From: Sneathia vaginalis
GTDB lineage: Bacteria; Fusobacteriota; Fusobacteriia; Fusobacteriales; Leptotrichiaceae
Direction: 5' to 3'
Assembly: GCF_000973085.1 (NCBI RefSeq)
Contig: NZ_CP011280.1
Coordinates: forward strand, 956,642 to 1,020,641
DNA: 64,000 nucleotides
Numbering within the stretch: position 1 is the first letter of the stretch; the number at the start of each line of letters is the position of its first letter. Both the position numbers and the translations under genes were made by a program. Shown one piece after another: positions 7,793-61,895 of this stretch. The notes under the pieces were generated by a model. It ran no database searches, was not told where the DNA came from, and saw nothing but the letters and a program-made list of their open reading frames with translations.

Positions 7793-7826
7793 AAAAAAAA
7801 AAAAAAAAAAACAGCTTTCGCTGCTT
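7793..7826 (-). terminator. terminator of the hydrolase-gapN-glucokinase operon
   Basis: Just after the glucokinase stop the minus strand has AGCAGC-GAAA-GCTGTT, a short GNRA-loop hairpin, followed by an unbroken run of 19 T (plus-strand A19, 7793-7811). An exceptionally long homopolymer for a terminator tail. Confidence 0.88.
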
Positions 7827-16190: not shown

Positions 16191-17399
16191 CTAGTTATTT
16201 TCCTCTTTTATTTTACTCCAAACTTCTTTCATGCTCTTTTCAAACTTGTTGTCTGAATACTCATAAAATTTAATTGGATTATTCATATATACTTGTTTTG
16301 TGTAATGATTCTTAAAATTATGTGGATAAACATATTGCTTAATACCTTCTCTTGTTAAGTGCTTAGGTACATCTTGGACTCCATTTTCACGTATATTTTC
16401 TAGTGCACTGTTTATCGCGTTATAGCTACTATTACTCTTAGGTGATAGGGCAAGATATATTACGCACTCTGCTAAAATTATTCTAGCTTCTGGTAAACCT
16501 ATCTTTTCAACTGCACGCATACACGATACAGCCACATCTAATGCCTTTACATTTGCAAGCCCTATATCCTCACTAGCTAATATTACAAGCCTTCTTGCTA
16601 TATACAATATATCTTCTCCGCCATCTATCATACTTGCTAGCCAGTAAATGCTTGCATTTTCATCACTACCCCTAATACTTTTTATCATGGCAGATATCCT
16701 ATCATACTTGTCACTATCGTTATATCTTCTCCTAATATCTAAGCCCTGCTTTACAACATCAAAGCCCACTTTACCAATCAATTCTAGTGTGTTTATAGCT
16801 ATTCTAGCATCTCCATCATAAATAGATAATATATATCTTCTTATTTCTTCTGTCACTTGTATATCATATTTTTTTGAAACATTGTCCACTATTTTTAAGA
16901 TTTCATCAGTACTTAATTTATCGAATTTTAAAACTACACATCTTGATACTAATGCCTTGTTTAGGTTATAGAAAGGGTTTTCTGTTGTTGTACCAATAAG
17001 GATAACATTACCCTCTTCTATGTCTTGTAATAAGGAGTCTTGTTGTGATCTATTAAATCTGTGTATTTCATCAAAAAGTAATATTGTCTTTTTGTTATTT
17101 AAGTTCATCATTTCTTTTGCTCTTAAACAAACACTTTTTACTTCTTGTACACCTGTGTTAATAGCATTTAGGTACTCAATATTATACCCCAACTCTTTAG
17201 CAAGTATTCTTGATAAAGTTGTTTTACCAGTCCCAGAAGGCCCATATATTAAAAGATTTACTAATTCTTTTTTCTTTACTATTTTCTCTATTATTCCCAT
17301 AGCATAAGATTGACCTACAAATTCTTTTAAACTTGTAGGTCTTGCTCTATATGCCAATGGCTTATTTTCTTTTTTACTATATATCCCTAATTGTTCCAT
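16191..17399 (-). CDS. rarA: replication-associated recombination protein A (RarA/MgsA)
   Basis: Clamp-loader-like AAA+ ATPase acting at stalled forks. About 402 residues with LAYRARPTSLKEFVGQ near the start, Walker A GPSGTGKTT near 55, Walker B LLFDEIHRF near 110, sensor 1 IGTTTENP, and the C-terminal MgsA tetramerisation domain (SDENASIYWLASM and later SPKSNSSYNAI). I chose the ATG at 17399: it follows the malQ stop by one base and has GGAAG 5 nt upstream, while the ATG at 17411 inside malQ has no ribosome site. dusA follows without a gap. Identification is secure; the start is less certain. Confidence 0.92.
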   Translation of the reverse strand: MEQLGIYSKKENKPLAYRARPTSLKEFVGQSYAMGIIEKIVKKKELVNLLIYGPSGTGKTTLSRILAKELGYNIEYLNAINTGVQEVKSVCLRAKEMMNLNNKKTILLFDEIHRFNRSQQDSLLQDIEEGNVILIGTTTENPFYNLNKALVSRCVVLKFDKLSTDEILKIVDNVSKKYDIQVTEEIRRYILSIYDGDARIAINTLELIGKVGFDVVKQGLDIRRRYNDSDKYDRISAMIKSIRGSDENASIYWLASMIDGGEDILYIARRLVILASEDIGLANVKALDVAVSCMRAVEKIGLPEARIILAECVIYLALSPKSNSSYNAINSALENIRENGVQDVPKHLTREGIKQYVYPHNFKNHYTKQVYMNNPIKFYEYSDNKFEKSMKEVWSKIKEENN

Positions 17400-27033: not shown

Positions 27034-29040
27034 CTAATTTTTTTTAATTAATTTTCTTAATTCTTTCATTTCATTTTCTAATTCTTTAATTTTTTCGTTT
27101 TGTTCTTTACTTTCTTTCATATACTCTAGAATTTTCTTTTCCATTCTTTTTATAACGTCATCTTTTGTACTACTTACTACTGTCATACCAAAGCCTAGTC
27201 CTACTCCTACATTTCCTCTCATATTTGTTGATACTCCCAACTTATATGAAAATCTTTCTGTATTTCCACTGATTCCTACTGCTAATGCATGTTCTCCTCC
27301 ATATGTTCCATATGCCCCTGTTATATTAACCAAACCTTCTCTTGGTTGTGTCATACTTGACATAGCTATTGCATTCGCTACTCCACCTAGGGCTAAGTTT
27401 GATTTTGCATTAATACCTTCTAATTTTTTATCTACTTCTGCTTTGTTATAGTAGTTTTCAGCTGAAAAAGAATTAGCCGCAACATAATCTTTTAATTGTT
27501 TTACATTTACTGCATCTGTATCAGCTGTTCCTTTTGCAACAAATTTTAATTGTCTTTGTGTAGTCTCATTACCAATTGATACTGCATTTTCTATTGCTTC
27601 AGAGCCATTACCTATTACTACTGCGTTATTTTTTTTATTAATTTTAACTTCATTCCCTAATACAATATTATTTTCACCATATATTTCATTATTATTACCA
27701 TGTAATATATTATTATTTCCAACAGTAATATTTTCAACTCCAAATACTTGATTTTTATCTCCTTTAGTATAGTTTTTTTCACCTATAGAATTAGAACCAT
27801 TACCAAAAGTTGCACTATTAGAACCTAATGTTACAGAATCAATACCTGCTGTTAAAGCATTAGTACCTATTGCATACGATCTAATCCCTATTGCATATGA
27901 AGAAGTTCCATATGCTAAATTATCTTCTCCTTTATATTCAATACTCTTTAAAAGTTCTTTCAATTCATTATTAAATTTTTCTTTCCATTCTGTAAAATAT
28001 GCTACTCTTCCTTCATATTCATTTAACAAATCTTTTTCTTTTTCTACGTTTTTATTTAACTCATCATATGTTTTCCCTACATTGTAGTGTGACACTTTAT
28101 TCCTAAAAGCAATTTTGTATAACTCTTCACTACAATTATCCATTTTATCAATTTCAAATTCTTTATGAGCTTCCAAAAAACTTTGTATTAAAGGCAATCT
28201 ATATGTTTTTATTTTTGCCTTTATATCCTTAACATTTTCATTTATTATATTATTGTCTTGTGGTTTACCATAATATGGACTAATATCATATACATTACCT
28301 GCCATAGGCTCTTTTAATTTATAACTAATACAATCTGATAAATATTTTTTCAAATTTTTTTCATCATCTAATTTCAAATAATCCCAAACAACTTGATCAT
28401 TAATAAATCCTTTTATTTTAGCCTTACTTAAATTAGAATTTCTATTATCATCAGCTTCATCTTTAAATGTAATATTTTCTATTGTTTCACCAACTAATCC
28501 TTTTTTATCTATTAAATAATCAGCTATTTTTCTTAAAGTAGCTCTGTAATCTCCAATTGGTGTACCAAACTTTTTATTAATTTCAATATTTTTTAATATT
28601 ATTATATTAGCAAATTCTCTAAATTTTTCTCTATCATCTGTAACTTGTTTTAATTGTGTTTCTACTTTTTGTTTATCAATAAAAAAATCATTTATTATTT
28701 TCATTTGACTTTCTATAGAATTTATTCTTTTTAATTTATTTATATATTGTTCTTTTATATCCTTAACTCTATTATCTATATCTGCTTTTGTTTTTTGTAT
28801 TTCATTTTCTATTTTACTCTTATCAATTAAATTTGAATTATAATATTCAAAATAATTATCTAAAGAATTAGAATTCGTTCCAATTGCAATACTATTTTTT
28901 GTTAAACTTATACCATCACTACCTTTAACATAAGAATTTTCACCTATTTCAAACTCATTTATTCTATTCTCAGATAAAGTAATACTACCAGTAATTACAA
29001 ATAAAATTATTATTAATATTTGTCTTGTATTTTTATTCAT
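27034..29040 (-). CDS. trimeric autotransporter adhesin TAA1 (YadA-like)
   Basis: Surface adhesin that trimerises and crosses the outer membrane through its own C-terminal barrel. 668 residues: signal peptide (about 1-23, MNKNTRQ then a hydrophobic run), a short head start, a long helical stretch (about 60-370), a YadA head with left-handed-roll repeats of the SxAIGxxS type (about 375-510), a neck ending in TDAVNVKQLKDY, and the YadA anchor (about 547-622, SNLALGGVANAIAMSS to GFGMTVV). Unusually the chain runs on for 46 residues past the last barrel strand as a charged coiled coil. Promoter with a run of 11 G in its spacer. A decayed relative of the head lies at 7390-7680. Confidence 0.92.
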   Translation of the reverse strand: MNKNTRQILIIILFVITGSITLSENRINEFEIGENSYVKGSDGISLTKNSIAIGTNSNSLDNYFEYYNSNLIDKSKIENEIQKTKADIDNRVKDIKEQYINKLKRINSIESQMKIINDFFIDKQKVETQLKQVTDDREKFREFANIIILKNIEINKKFGTPIGDYRATLRKIADYLIDKKGLVGETIENITFKDEADDNRNSNLSKAKIKGFINDQVVWDYLKLDDEKNLKKYLSDCISYKLKEPMAGNVYDISPYYGKPQDNNIINENVKDIKAKIKTYRLPLIQSFLEAHKEFEIDKMDNCSEELYKIAFRNKVSHYNVGKTYDELNKNVEKEKDLLNEYEGRVAYFTEWKEKFNNELKELLKSIEYKGEDNLAYGTSSYAIGIRSYAIGTNALTAGIDSVTLGSNSATFGNGSNSIGEKNYTKGDKNQVFGVENITVGNNNILHGNNNEIYGENNIVLGNEVKINKKNNAVVIGNGSEAIENAVSIGNETTQRQLKFVAKGTADTDAVNVKQLKDYVAANSFSAENYYNKAEVDKKLEGINAKSNLALGGVANAIAMSSMTQPREGLVNITGAYGTYGGEHALAVGISGNTERFSYKLGVSTNMRGNVGVGLGFGMTVVSSTKDDVIKRMEKKILEYMKESKEQNEKIKELENEMKELRKLIKKN

Positions 29041-29059: not shown

Positions 29060-29091
29060 ATTATATACCCCCCCCCCCGAAATTTTGTCAA
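29060..29091 (-). promoter_or_regulatory. TAA1 promoter with G11 tract in the spacer
   Basis: Minus strand TTGACA (29091-29086), then AAATTTC, eleven G (plus-strand C11, 29068-29078), then TATATAAT. Spacer is 18 bp to TATATA or 20 bp to the better box TATAAT (29065-29060). The ATG is 20 bp downstream of TATAAT, after AGGGAGAGG. Slippage of the G run would shift the spacer length and so promoter strength. Confidence 0.85.
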
Positions 29092-56699: not shown

Positions 56700-56728
56700 A
56701 AAATGCCAGACACATCTGGCATTTTAAT
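56697..56728. terminator. bidirectional terminator between lysS and TAA2
   Basis: AAATGCCAGA (56701-56710) pairs perfectly with TCTGGCATTT (56715-56724), loop CACA, flanked by A and T runs on both sides. It ends both convergent transcripts. Confidence 0.92.
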
Positions 56729-59006
56729 TTTGACCTAATCTTTTCATGACTTTTTCAAGTTGTTTTTCTAATCTATTAGTCTTTTCAGTTTGTTCTTTTA
56801 ATCTATTTTCAAGATCACTAATTCTCTTATCCTTACTATTTACACTACCAAGCATTACTCCAGCTCCAATACCAAAGGCAAGATTACCCTTACTATTAAC
56901 TGATCCACTTAGTTTGTAGATAAAGTTTTGATTATCATTTGTTCCACTAAATCCAACAGCTACTGCATGAGAACCACCATAATATCCATATGATGCTGCT
57001 AAATTAAACTTCTTATCTCCCATTACTTGTGGTAGATTAGCCATAGCCACTGCATTTGATACTCCACCTAAAGCAAGGTCTGATTTCTTATCTACTTCTT
57101 TAACATCTTTTTGTAGTTGTTGTATATCACTAGTATTCTTTTCTACTTTTGTTCTAACAGCCTTTAATTGACTTACATTTACTGCATCTTTAGCTTTGAC
57201 ACCATTAGCTACATTTGTTATGACTTTTTCACCATCTTTAACACGTAATATTACATTCTTTTTTTCATCACTTTTTAACTTAGAATATTCTTCTTCAGAT
57301 AAAACTTTTTCATCTAAAACATATTCAAATGTATTTGAACCTCCAACATTTTCATTTACTTTAAAGGTTGCTATATGTTCTTTTGGTGTTTTAGTTTCTG
57401 TTGGTGTAGGTGCAATTTGTGGTGTTACAGCAGGTTTACTAGTATTAGGTTGTGTTGTTTGAGATTGTTTACTAGTTTTATCATCATCTACTGATATATC
57501 AATACCATCTCCTTTTAACACCAAAGTATCTCCTAATTTAACGTTTATAGTTTTTTCTCCTGCTTTTACATTTATATATTGGTTCTTTATTACTTGTTTT
57601 AGTTGTGCAACATTAACTGCATCAGTATCTTCACTACCTGCTGCAAGTCCTGTTAATTGACGAGTCATTCCTGTATCTTCATTACCTATAGATACTGCAG
57701 CTCCTGTTGATTTCCACATACAAATTGCCTTATTATATGCCATTGAATTTTCAGCACTTAATCTTTCAACCTCTTCTTTTAAATTTTTATCATCGGGCTT
57801 AGTTTTTAATTCATCTTTTTTTACTTTCAAATTATTATATGCCTTAACCCATTCATCATATTTTTCATCATTCCCTATTTTTTTATTCAAATCTACTTTA
57901 TCAACAAATGGAACATAACCTAAAGTCCCTTTATCTCTATTTGATATAGAACCATAACCTAAAGCTACACCAGTTTCATAATTTACTTTTGAACTTACAC
58001 CTAATGCTGTTGCAAATCCAACATTAGCATTTGAATAAGGTCCTATCGCTAATGACCAGTTACCATTTACATTTGCTTTATATCCATATGCCATACTTGC
58101 TAGTCCTATAGCATTTGAATTACTACCACTTGCAATTGTATAGTTCCCTATAGCATTTGAATCACGACCAATTGATATAGCATCTTCACCTGATGAAACT
58201 AAAAAAGATCCTAAAGCTAAACCATGTTGTCCTCCTCGGTATTCTTTTTCTTTTTCTTTTTCCCCATATTTATATTTAGATTCTGAACCTATAACTTCAT
58301 TCCCATATCCAAATGACATTCCTAAATCTTCAACTTTAGAACTTTTACCGAAAATAACACTACCACCACTAATTGTATTTGTCATACCAGTAACTACATT
58401 TTGATCAGATCCTTTTTTATTGTATTCCCATACTGCTAATTCATTTTTTTTATCAGCATTTTTATTAATTGCTGTCCATCCAACTAAATTCCCTTGACCT
58501 ATAACTACATTGTGTTCTCCAGATACTTTTGTAAGCTTATTATCTCCATTATAGTAATCTATTCCTACAACAACATTATATGCACCATCGACTTCAAGAT
58601 TATTACCTAAAACAACACTATTATTTTTACCATTTTTTATACCTGTAAGTTTAGAATTTACACCAATTACAATACCATTATCTCCTCCTTTAGCACCATC
58701 ATTAGTATAATTACTATTTGGACCTGTTTCATTTGAATTTACTGAAATATAATGTAATCCATCATTTAAATTTATTGTATATGCTTTATTATTTTCATCA
58801 ATAACTACTAGCTTATACTTATTTTTTTCTTCATTTGTAAGCTTATTGTATTCTTCTTCTGTTAAAACTTTCTTACTTTGTGCATCAACATATATTTTAA
58901 TATTATCTGCGTATCCTATACTACCATAGAATAAGAATGGTAATATTGTTAATATCATTAATTTAAGTTTAAATTTAAAACTAAACTTAATGTCATTTAT
59001 ATTCAT
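56724..59006 (-). CDS. trimeric autotransporter adhesin TAA2 (YadA-like)
   Basis: 760-residue surface adhesin. Extended signal peptide with a charged start and hydrophobic core (about 1-33, ending GSIGYA). Then a passenger of left-handed-roll head repeats (about 95-375, for example SGEDAISIGRDSNAIGNYTI), a helical neck, RQLTGLAAGSEDTDAVNVAQLK (two parts, near 480), a Thr/Pro-rich linker (near 540-565), a second neck KAKDAVNVSQLKAV, and the YadA anchor (about 648-722). A 38-residue coiled coil follows the anchor. A module of the form VLxEEEYxKL with following acidic residues occurs twice, near 47 and near 590. Promoter spacer contains a G tract. Confidence 0.93.
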   Translation of the reverse strand: MNINDIKFSFKFKLKLMILTILPFLFYGSIGYADNIKIYVDAQSKKVLTEEEYNKLTNEEKNKYKLVVIDENNKAYTINLNDGLHYISVNSNETGPNSNYTNDGAKGGDNGIVIGVNSKLTGIKNGKNNSVVLGNNLEVDGAYNVVVGIDYYNGDNKLTKVSGEHNVVIGQGNLVGWTAINKNADKKNELAVWEYNKKGSDQNVVTGMTNTISGGSVIFGKSSKVEDLGMSFGYGNEVIGSESKYKYGEKEKEKEYRGGQHGLALGSFLVSSGEDAISIGRDSNAIGNYTIASGSNSNAIGLASMAYGYKANVNGNWSLAIGPYSNANVGFATALGVSSKVNYETGVALGYGSISNRDKGTLGYVPFVDKVDLNKKIGNDEKYDEWVKAYNNLKVKKDELKTKPDDKNLKEEVERLSAENSMAYNKAICMWKSTGAAVSIGNEDTGMTRQLTGLAAGSEDTDAVNVAQLKQVIKNQYINVKAGEKTINVKLGDTLVLKGDGIDISVDDDKTSKQSQTTQPNTSKPAVTPQIAPTPTETKTPKEHIATFKVNENVGGSNTFEYVLDEKVLSEEEYSKLKSDEKKNVILRVKDGEKVITNVANGVKAKDAVNVSQLKAVRTKVEKNTSDIQQLQKDVKEVDKKSDLALGGVSNAVAMANLPQVMGDKKFNLAASYGYYGGSHAVAVGFSGTNDNQNFIYKLSGSVNSKGNLAFGIGAGVMLGSVNSKDKRISDLENRLKEQTEKTNRLEKQLEKVMKRLGQN
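56825..57097. repeat. anchor-coding repeat, copy 1
   Basis: About 270 bp coding for the YadA anchor of TAA2, nearly identical at DNA level to 59267-59537 and 62084-62356. Long stretches, such as the one beginning CCAATACCAAAGGCAAGATT, match without difference in all three. Confidence 0.9.
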
Positions 59007-59028: not shown

Positions 59029-59055
59029 ATTCTACCCCCCCCCGCATATTTTCAA
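59029..59055 (-). promoter_or_regulatory. TAA2 promoter with G tract in the spacer
   Basis: Minus strand TTGAAA, then ATATGC, a run of about nine to eleven G (plus-strand C run starting at 59035), then directly TAGAAT (59034-59029), 22 bp before the ATG, with GGAGGGG as ribosome site. The spacer is about 15-17 bp, so a change of one or two G would move it through the optimum of 17. Confidence 0.82.
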
Positions 59056-59093
59056 GGCTTTTTTAGCATTTTATATAAACATTTTTTAACATC

Positions 59094-59138: not shown

Positions 59139-59155
59139 CTATTAATGTTTATTAA

Positions 59156-60928
59156 CTATTTATTCATTAATCTTTTCACAATATCTTCTAGTTTTTGAAT
59201 TCTTTCATTTTGTTTTCTAATATTTTCTGCAAATATATTATTTTGTTTAGTTAATTCTTCTATTTTCTTATCCTTACTATTTACACTACCCATCATAACA
59301 CCAGCTCCAATACCAAAGGCAAGATTACCCTTACTATTAACTGATCCACTTAGTTTGTAGATAAAGTTTTGATTATCATTTGTTCCACTAAAGCCTATAG
59401 CTAACGCATGAGAACCTCCATAATATCCATATGATGCTGCTAAATTAAACTTCTTATCTCCCATTACTTGTGGTAGATTAGCCATAGCCACTGCATTTGA
59501 TACTCCACCTAAAGCTAGGTCTGATTTCTTATTTGCATCCTCTATCTTTTTATTCATTTCTTCTTTTTCCTTGGCTAATAGACCAGCACCTTTTGTTATA
59601 TCCTTGAAAAAGTCTTCTTCCTTAGCATTAGGCTTATTTTTCTTTTCTTTCCATACTTCAAAGGCACTCTTTCCATCTTGTCCATCTTTTCCATTTTTTC
59701 CATCTTGCCCTTTATCACCTTTATCGCCTTTTAACCATTTAACAAAGTCTCCTTCACTTTTGCCTGCATTACCATCTTGCTTTAACCAACTTTGATATGC
59801 TGATTCACCATCGCCTTTTATTCCTTGTTCTCCTTTTAATGAATCAATAAAATCTAATTCAGTTAAGTCCTTCAATTTTTTATTATGCTTATCTGCATAT
59901 TCAATAGCTTTAGATGATGTAGCCCATATATCATATGCACTCTTTCCTGCTTTTAATGTAACTTTTTTATCTACATAACTTCTCATTGCTTTTAATTGAG
60001 CAACATTAACTGCATCTGTATCTTCACTACCTGCTGAAAGACCTGTTAATTGACGAGTTATACCTTTATCAGGATTACCTATAGATATTGCACTAACTGT
60101 ACTAAAATACGGTGTTACTCCTTTAATTTTATCTTCTAATTCTTCTAATGCTGTATCTAATGTTTCTCTTTCAGTTTTTAAACTTTTTATTTTTACTTTT
60201 TTTTCATTTAAATCTCTTTCCAAAGAATCTTTTGTTTTTTTAATTTGTTGCAAAATATAATTTTCATGGACATTAGTTTCATTAAATTCATTAAGACCCT
60301 TTATATTAATTTCATTTTTTTCATTTTCTTTTTCTAAATTTTTTATGTCATAAATATTATTCTTTATTTCCTGTTTTTTATCTTTTATTTTTTTTATATA
60401 ATCAGTGTATTTTACACTTTCATCTAATCCTAAATCTTTATTTGTATATTCTTTATCTTCAACAACATTATATCCATACTTCCCTTTTTCTCTATCTGCT
60501 AGTGCTTCGCTACCTATTGAAAATCCTTCTTCAATTTTTGTTACTGCACCTTTTCCTATAGATACTCCTTCAGTTGCACTAGGTTCTACAGTTCCTCCTG
60601 AAAGTGCAAGTGAATTTTTAGCCTTTGCATAACTCCAACTACCCATTGCAATTGCATTATTCCCATATGCTTCTGATTCATAACCACTCGCAAATGAACT
60701 ATTACCATAAGCTTTAGTATAATATCCAAATGATATTGATTCTTTACCTGCTGAAAGTGTATTATATCCATAAGAAATTGAATGAATTCCTGAAGATATG
60801 GCATTTTCACCACCTGCAAATGTTCCTTTATTACCTGCAACACTTTCTATTCCTATTGCGAATGCTCCTTGTCCATATGAAGCATTTCTAACACCTATAG
60901 CAGTTGAATTATTACTTGGTTTATTCAT
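59156..60928 (-). pseudogene. TAA3, distal part: head, stalk and anchor of a frameshifted adhesin
   Basis: 590 codons that begin directly in YadA head repeats (NNSTAIGVRNASYGQGAFAIG) with no signal peptide, so alone they could not be exported. They continue a gene begun at 61731: the upstream frame ends at 60925 just after a run of eight A (minus strand, about 60952-60945), and one extra A would join both frames. Contents: head (1-175), long coiled coil (190-285), neck TDAVNVAQLKAM, a collagen-like stretch GDKGDKGQDGKNGKDGQDGK with three SAY/F-x-x-W modules (about 330-450), YadA anchor (about 475-549) and a 41-residue coiled tail. Either a true off state, a dead gene or a base-calling error at the homopolymer. 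Confidence 0.85.
59267..59537. repeat. anchor-coding repeat, copy 2
   Basis: YadA-anchor segment of TAA3, near-identical to the copies in TAA2 and TAA4. It differs from both mainly around 59393-59422, coding SHALAIGF instead of SHAVAVGF. Confidence 0.9.
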
Positions 60929-61731
60929 TTCAAATAAACCAAATTTTTTTTAAAACTATAATAATTATTTTTCCAATCATAATTTATAGCATAAGGCTTA
61001 TTTTTCTCCTTAATTCCAGGATTATCTCTTTCTTGTTCATAGCCAATTATTAATTCTTTATCCTTTATACCATTGGATATCTTCTTTTTAATTGGTTTCA
61101 ATTGCATTCCAGCACTATTCCCCCAACCCAAAGCAATGTTAGAATTTAAATCTTGTCTACCCCAATTATCTTTTCCTTTATACACGTTATTATTAAACAT
61201 TGCTAAGTATTGTGCAGTATCATCATTAGCAGTATATATATTCCCATGCAATCCATCAAATTGTAAAGCTCCTAGACTAAAATTATGGTTATTTAAGTCT
61301 AACTTTGTTTGTGCAAATGCTCCTCTTACAAATTTTTCATTACCTATACTTACACCTGAAATTATTTGATTTTTACCATCAAGATTAATAAATCCTACAG
61401 AAAATTTAGCTTCCCCTCCATTTTCACCATCTTCTTTTATTTCTATTTTAACGCCTGGATACGTTCCACCATTTTTTGATGTTTTAAATTTACCAATTTC
61501 TATATTTTTTAAATCTTTTTCTATTTGTTTTTTTACTGCATTTGGTATTTTTTTATCTATTTTTTTCCCTAATTCATCATCCAAATAGTCTAACCATTGA
61601 TTTATTCGATCATCTACATAATCATTTATTTTATCTACATCTCCATTAGCATATATATTACTTACTCCTGTAAGGAATATACTTGAAATAATTAAAATTA
61701 AATTAATCTTTTTCTTACCACTTTTTTTCAT
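60925..61731 (-). pseudogene. TAA3, proximal part: signal peptide and N-terminal domain
   Basis: 268 codons with a signal peptide (MKKSGKKKINLILIISSIFL, cleavage near residue 28) and an N-terminal region of helices (30-75) and beta segments with head-like elements (QIISGVSIGNEKFVRGAFAQ; SNIALGWGNSAGMQ). No anchor. It stops at 60925, overlapping by 4 nt the ATG that opens the distal part in another frame. The shift is explained by a run of eight A in TTTAAAAAAAATTTGG; nine A would give FKKKFGLFEMNK and read through. As it stands it would be a secreted fragment without outer-membrane anchor. Confidence 0.82.
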
Positions 61732-61763: not shown

Positions 61764-61791
61764 ATTGTACCCCCCCCCATTCTATTTTCAA
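61764..61791 (-). promoter_or_regulatory. TAA3 promoter with G9 tract in the spacer
   Basis: Minus strand TTGAAA (61791-61786), ATAGAAT, nine G (plus-strand C9, 61770-61778), then directly TACAAT (61769-61764). Spacer is 16 bp; adding one G gives 17. The ATG is 32 bp downstream of the -10, and the ribosome site (GTTGAGG) is weak. Confidence 0.85.
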
Positions 61792-61895
61792 GGTCTTATT
61801 TAGTATTAGTAAATACCTTTATTAACTTATCAATGACTACATTATTACTTTTTATTATATATTGTGTTTTATTATCTCACATTTTTTAACTGTAT

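Follow-up and report, generated by a model that had tools for sequence, protein, structure and literature searches.

Homopolymer tracts at the promoters of trimeric autotransporter adhesin genes in Sneathia vaginalis: probable random on/off switches

A G tract in the promoter of an adhesin gene unit

The window analysed here is a 64,000-nucleotide stretch of Sneathia vaginalis DNA (bases 956642-1020641 of a single 1,330,224-bp contig; window G+C 28.2%), in which a run of nine guanines lies in the promoter of a gene unit for a trimeric autotransporter adhesin (TAA). Read directly on the minus strand, this focal promoter consists of TTGAAA, ATAGAAT (7 bp), GGGGGGGGG (G9) and TACAAT, with a total spacer of 16 bp, which is exactly the layout that the initial annotation had given for positions 61764-61791. 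The homopolymer is thus placed between recognisable -35 and -10 boxes, and the predicted start codon of the unit, at 61731, follows 38 nt past the tract. The features of the unit, including its open reading frames (ORFs), are, from upstream to downstream:

61886..61890, minus strand: far GTTAA box, 64 bp upstream of the near box
61822..61826, minus strand: near GTTAA box, 48 nt 5' of the tract
61786..61791, minus strand: -35-like hexamer TTGAAA (sequence and joint promoter scoring)
61770..61778, minus strand: G9 tract GGGGGGGGG, the 3' part of the spacer (7 + 9 = 16 bp; sequence)
61764..61769, minus strand: -10-like hexamer TACAAT, abutting the tract (sequence and joint promoter scoring)
60925..61731, minus strand: 268-aa ORF, first of the unit, with a signal-peptide-like N-terminus and no Pfam match
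59156..60928, minus strand: 590-aa ORF with YadA stalk and YadA anchor, without signal sequence (Pfam scan)

The 590-aa ORF carries a C-terminal YadA-like anchor (PF03895, E = 4.9e-11) and a coiled stalk over the cut-off (PF05662, E = 8.2e-8), while head repeats remained below the cut-off in the Pfam scan; with stalk and anchor, the unit behind the tract encodes a surface-exposed type of product. It does not run in a single frame from signal peptide to anchor: the 268-aa and 590-aa ORFs are in different frames, overlap by 4 nt and are separated by a break beside a short A run, making this a split TAA in the present assembly. The earlier label "adhesin TAA3" has to be corrected in this respect. 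For the frame break, an error of the assembly, a genuine inactivation of the gene and a second contingency site are the candidate explanations. Other broken TAA units occur in the assembly, namely one at 410635 (a 94-aa ORF followed by a 779-aa ORF without signal) and a giant TAA at 821949-833030, broken into three ORFs; true contingency sites, decay and sequencing error are possible alternatives for such splits.

Long G runs in the genome

Genome-wide counts were drawn from pattern searches and selected stretches, and the chance expectation from the G runs of both window strands, which follow a roughly geometric law with a continuation probability of 0.16. Under this law 0.17 runs of at least nine G are expected in the 1.33-Mb genome, and 13 were seen, so that the focal tract exceeds the chance level of its genome. 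Shuffling of the window agreed (11 overlapping matches to G7 or longer, from three tracts, vs 0.39 expected), and the earlier judgement that a G9 at this place is unlikely by chance is borne out. Eight of the 13 runs are G9, four are G10 and one is G11, while runs of exactly G6, G7 and G8 number 8, 2 and 0, respectively; with G8 empty and G9-11 in excess, the long runs are a separate population, set off by a gap from the ordinary ones. Runs of six to eight G, only ten in the genome, are fewer than predicted (the geometric law gives about 37 runs of at least six), and G runs outside the promoter set therefore look selected against.

Twelve of the 13 long runs lie 0-3 bp 5' of a TANNNT box, and each is preceded at 6-9 bp by a hexamer of the TTG or TT type; the best-scoring spacers are 15, 15, 16, 16, 17, 18, 18, 18, 19, 19, 19 and 20 bp. 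Each of the 12 has a TAA unit behind it (in three cases within the window), for which the binomial chance is about 1e-21 if the tracts were placed before random genes. Eleven units hold one TAA each, with a YadA_anchor match in 11/11 proteins, the anchor being in the second ORF in the 410635 unit and the focal unit; the remaining tract, at 833614, is followed by a 170-aa secreted protein and then by the giant TAA in its three ORFs. The 13th run (G9, 576604-576612) was rejected as a promoter, lying in frame inside a 689-aa coding ORF, where it would be a frame-shifting contingency site if it slips.

The two sister promoters of the window both precede TAAs in single reading frames:

59152..59156, minus strand: far GTTAA box, second promoter; it overlaps the stop codon of the TAA ORF upstream
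59086..59090, minus strand: near GTTAA box, second promoter
59050..59055, minus strand: -35-like TTGAAA, second promoter (promoter scoring)
59035..59043, minus strand: G9 tract, second promoter, spacer 15
59029..59034, minus strand: -10-like TAGAAT, second promoter (promoter scoring)
56724..59006, minus strand: 760-aa TAA with YadA stalk and anchor behind the second tract (Pfam scan)
29086..29091, minus strand: -35 TTGACA, third promoter (promoter scoring)
29068..29078, minus strand: G11 tract, third promoter, spacer 18 to TATATA or 20 to TATAAT
29060..29065, minus strand: -10 TATAAT, third promoter, two bases 3' of the tract
27034..29040, minus strand: 668-aa TAA behind the third tract

The initial annotation had described a single promoter, which stands, and had missed the sister tracts, the set as a whole and the split in the downstream gene.

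T-run promoters and the TAA repertoire

Of the 20 YadA_anchor matches found in the genome, one belongs to a small 136-aa ORF and another to a fragment. A run of 15-20 T, ending 3-5 bp before TAAAAT or TACAAT, takes the place of the G run in five TAA genes, whose starts lie near 16902, 878762, 1095895, 1160149 and 1205305. This layout is shared, with T13-T19, by seven paralogous genes for secreted proteins (beginning MKKTLLLTSLVAS), one of which was scanned and gave no Pfam match. There are 19 runs of at least 13 T in the genome, and 12 of these are of the promoter type (tracts at 16837, 62915, 67568, 83266, 85008, 878853, 882282, 1095834, 1100867, 1109147, 1160193 and 1205353). Five paralogs of this class have nearly identical flanks and tracts of T13, T16, T17, T18 and T19.

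Together, 12 G-run and 12 T-run promoters make 24 homopolymer promoters in all, and 17 of the 18 substantial TAA units have a homopolymer at the core promoter. One intact TAA unit is without a recognised tract promoter:

61943..64000, minus strand: TAA gene cut by the end of the window, with a full length of about 1065 aa in the genome, a T14 near its start and without GTTAA boxes

Another long T run of the window, a T19 on the minus strand (7793-7811), directly follows CAGC-GAAA-GCTG and reads as an intrinsic terminator, not as a promoter tract. In the draft genome of a second Sneathia species, many runs of at least 13 T are found at or near contig ends (contigs C5, C6, C10, C12 and C14, and further C15, C17, C18 and C19), suggesting that T-run promoters are probably under-assembled in draft genomes.

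Paired GTTAA boxes upstream of the tracts

Two GTTAA boxes spaced 63-66 bp apart are present in 20 of the 24 homopolymer promoters, i.e. in 8/12 of the G class and 12/12 of the T class (12/13 when the doubtful T14 is counted); some of these upstream regions are duplicates of one another, so that not all of the cases are independent. The near box lies 46-48 nt 5' of the tract in the G class and 31-36 nt 5' in the T class, against a chance expectation of about 0.2 GTTAA per 110 bp. A longer form of the box, GTTAANNAATAAAC, occurs eight times in the genome, each time at a T-class promoter, while the reversed control gave none. Two of the G promoters have a second copy of the near box at a step of 10-11 bp, reminiscent of the direct repeats of response regulators.

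The pair is associated with the quality of the -35 box. In the eight G promoters that have it, the -35 hexamer is TTGAAA, TTGATT or TTCAAA; the four without it have TTGACA (three promoters) or TTTGCA/TTGCAA with a perfect TATAAT (p = 0.002 for weak -35 vs pair, the grouping having been made after the data were seen). As the pair is common to most of the set, a common regulator is likely, and we infer that an activator, predicted to bind at the boxes, would help the weak -35 hexamers. No enrichment of GTTAA at a fixed place was found in Streptobacillus promoters, and the boxes therefore look Sneathia-specific.

A two-layer arrangement can be proposed tentatively, at somewhat less than even odds, in which a regulator on the GTTAA pairs (about six helix turns apart) would set most of the repertoire of TAAs and secreted proteins, while each promoter would have a homopolymer switch of its own, formed by a G run between -35 and -10 or by a T13-20 that replaces the -35 region. 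For the latter design we know of no close precedent outside the mycoplasmas. In the T class, the tract may act by setting how far a regulator at the GTTAA boxes stands from the core promoter, in parallel to nadA of Neisseria (see below).

G-run promoters in Streptobacillus and other relatives

The pattern TTGA-N-G8-T was found in 11 of 33 Leptotrichiaceae genomes, concentrated in Sneathia and Streptobacillus, and its reversed control in 0/33; across 98 Fusobacteriota genomes the reversed control gave two single matches. In Streptobacillus moniliformis 37 of the 40 runs of at least eight G are promoter-like, mostly of the form TTGACA-N6..9-G9..13-TATAAT, and in S. notomytis 21 of 23 examined tracts are; in the two species together the boxes are mostly near-consensus (TTGACA-N6..9-G8..13-TATAAT or TATACT). 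The 39 proteins behind the S. moniliformis runs include 13 TAAs, four classical autotransporter or pertactin-like proteins, two OmpA-like proteins and many small secreted ones. By position, at least 16 of the 24 anchor matches of this species lie behind a G run, while three of its TAA genes whose upstream regions were read have none. The Leptotrichia-type genomes checked have one or two G runs each, without the design as a set.

Orthologous promoters allow tract lengths to be compared. Among Streptobacillus pairs with flanks at least 93% identical, the length differs in 6/9, at a flank change of 2.8% per base, and at the 80% flank level in 17/22; the pairs share members and are not all independent, and homopolymer sequencing error may add or drop a base in the compared tracts. 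Length differences between near-identical promoters are what slippage predicts, here seen between species and between paralogs, not within one strain.

Several further observations concern the spread of the arrangement. In Sneathia as in Streptobacillus, a gene for a small secreted protein (165-183 aa) immediately precedes that of a giant TAA, both being behind a single G-run promoter; the small protein is possibly an accessory of giant TAAs:

833027-833539, Sneathia: small secreted protein before a giant TAA
191522, 267330 and 1650337, Streptobacillus: small secreted proteins before giant TAAs

G runs ahead of adhesin-like genes also occur in a further genus of the family (C38:80864, C38:84521 and contig C11), with a different sequence after them, GGTAAT or TTATAGTA, perhaps a diverged version of the design. 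The viral contigs searched gave no match to the focal flanks or to a T-class flank, and one match to a loose pattern. More widely, TTGACA-N9-G9-TANNNT occurs in more than 118 stretches from many phyla (Treponema and other metagenome-assembled spirochaete genomes, rabbit-gut Bacilli and Clostridia, Saccharibacteria and others). A crude signal sequence was seen in 67/98 nearby ORFs vs a background of 26%, a contrast somewhat inflated by allowing several start codons in the test set, and promoters of this kind, with a G run in the spacer and a secreted protein downstream, may be much more widespread than has been described.

Phase variation as the proposed function and the alternatives

Homopolymer runs at TAA promoters probably switch their genes on and off at random. 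For the focal promoter we put a probability of roughly 0.86 on the reading, drawn from sequence comparison, that the G9 is a contingency tract, in which slippage would alter the -35/-10 spacing and hence the transcription of the TAA unit. The tract would be a slippage-prone homopolymer making up the 3' half of the spacer, and gain or loss of a G during replication would change the spacing and twist between the boxes, and with them promoter strength; the outcome would be heritable and reversible high or low transcription of the unit downstream. In the sister class, a run of 13-20 T would serve in place of the G run. On top of each private switch a shared activator at the GTTAA boxes could act, most Sneathia promoters having a weak -35. 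Given spacers from 15 to 20 bp, the clone that was sequenced would combine stronger with weaker promoters. That one added G, giving a 17-bp spacer, would raise the focal promoter is a reasonable prediction.

The mechanism class proposed by the initial annotation, phase-variable transcription through a homopolymer in the spacer, thus finds strong support in the position of the tract, its recurrence before TAA units across the genome and in Streptobacillus, and the length differences between orthologs; slippage inside one strain, its effect on transcription and the assignment of on and off states are the inferred part. Two variants of the explanation were rejected. Transcript-level effects such as RNA structure or polymerase stutter are not expected, since a G run placed upstream of the -10 box should stay outside the transcript. 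Loss of mismatch repair as the cause of the long runs does not fit the presence of MutS in 17/17 genomes searched.

Several points weigh against the proposed switch. The focal gene is split, so the unit may currently make no full adhesin. With MutS present, mismatch-repair loss adds nothing to the instability of the tract. Its length is known from one assembly of one isolate, and the transcription start is predicted from the boxes only. The genome of S. vaginalis SN35 was sequenced by 454 (PMC3535699), and if the present assembly is that genome, homopolymer lengths may be off by one.

The same error-proneness of homopolymers in 454 data, the technology used for SN35, could be taken to favour a chance or assembly artefact in an AT-rich genome, but such an origin is close to negligible in view of the excess of long G runs, all but one at TAA promoters, and of the independent genomes that have the same design while reversed-pattern controls are zero in the family. 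It is also quite improbable that the G run is a fixed structural element, such as a stiff, A-like piece of DNA or a G stretch to which a protein binds: the tract keeps its position in both genera and is always at or nearly at the -10 box, as such an element would be, but a fixed element would hold its length, whereas tracts of 8 to 13 bases occur, with different lengths in orthologous promoters that are nearly identical, and five TAA genes in the genome use a T run instead.

A more serious competitor, though still an unlikely one, is that the tract mainly shifts the spacing of a GTTAA-bound upstream regulator relative to the core promoter, for which nadA offers a precedent (PMC2791445). The fixed distance of the box pair 5' of the tract in 8 of 12 G promoters and in the 12 T promoters would fit this, as would the presence of the pair in 8/8 G promoters with a weak -35 and its absence from the other four. 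Those four, however, and most of the Streptobacillus promoters have a tract without the boxes, and there the spacer effect alone must suffice. The spacer effect and the regulator-spacing effect can operate together.

Comparison with known systems

In Neisseria meningitidis, porA, fetA and opc are reported to be phase-variable through a homopolymer between -35 and -10 (PMC2791445). The Sneathia promoters resemble them in the homopolymer in the spacer, the outer-membrane product and the sigma-70-type boxes, and differ in that the set consists of TAAs, with 12 promoters in a 1.33-Mb genome of another phylum, a T-run class and paired GTTAA boxes. In tp0126 of Treponema pallidum, a poly-G between -35 and -10 was shown experimentally to act in this way, with transcription best at 17 nt (PMC7864442). 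Both tp0126, an OmpW homolog, and the tpr promoters have the poly-G in the promoter, as in Sneathia; however, G+C is near 53% in T. pallidum and G runs are common, whereas at 28% in Sneathia the runs stand alone and the arrangement is known from sequence.

Two further systems involve TAAs. In Moraxella catarrhalis the amount of uspA1 mRNA varies with how long a G tract 5' of the ORF is (PMC7302503). A TAA gene is thus tied to G-run length in both organisms, uspA1 being a single gene while Sneathia has a set. The uspA1 tract reportedly lies in the untranslated leader and not in the spacer. In nadA of Neisseria meningitidis, a length-variable repeat shifts the spacing between the promoter and a regulator site (PMC2791445). 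That repeat is a tetranucleotide (TAAA) upstream of the promoter and the regulator, NadR, is a repressor, whereas in Sneathia a homopolymer lies in the spacer and the predicted regulator is probably an activator. The vlp genes of Mycoplasma hyorhinis are several paralogous surface-protein genes, each with an A run in the promoter spacer; these are A runs instead of G runs, and the T-run class of Sneathia is the nearer parallel.

The single G9 promoter therefore belongs to an already known type, the homopolymer spacer. What is new is the scale and layout: 12 G and 12 T promoters in one reduced genome, covering almost the whole TAA repertoire, with GTTAA pairs and a parallel in Streptobacillus. 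A literature search found no report of phase variation in Sneathia or Streptobacillus, which is weak evidence, few subscription papers having been covered.

Implications

Bacterial vaginosis and preterm birth have been linked to Sneathia, and Streptobacillus is the agent of rat-bite fever. If the proposed switching is true, a genome of 1.33 Mb with some 24 promoters that switch independently could take on millions of surface states, and if nearly all TAAs switch independently, adhesin surveys of single isolates, strain comparisons and antigen choices would overlook the greater part of the variety that is expressed. Tract lengths in ordinary sequencing data could then show which state each adhesin is likely to be in, and the dozens of natural promoters differing mainly in one tract would make it possible to study how RNA polymerase responds to spacer length.
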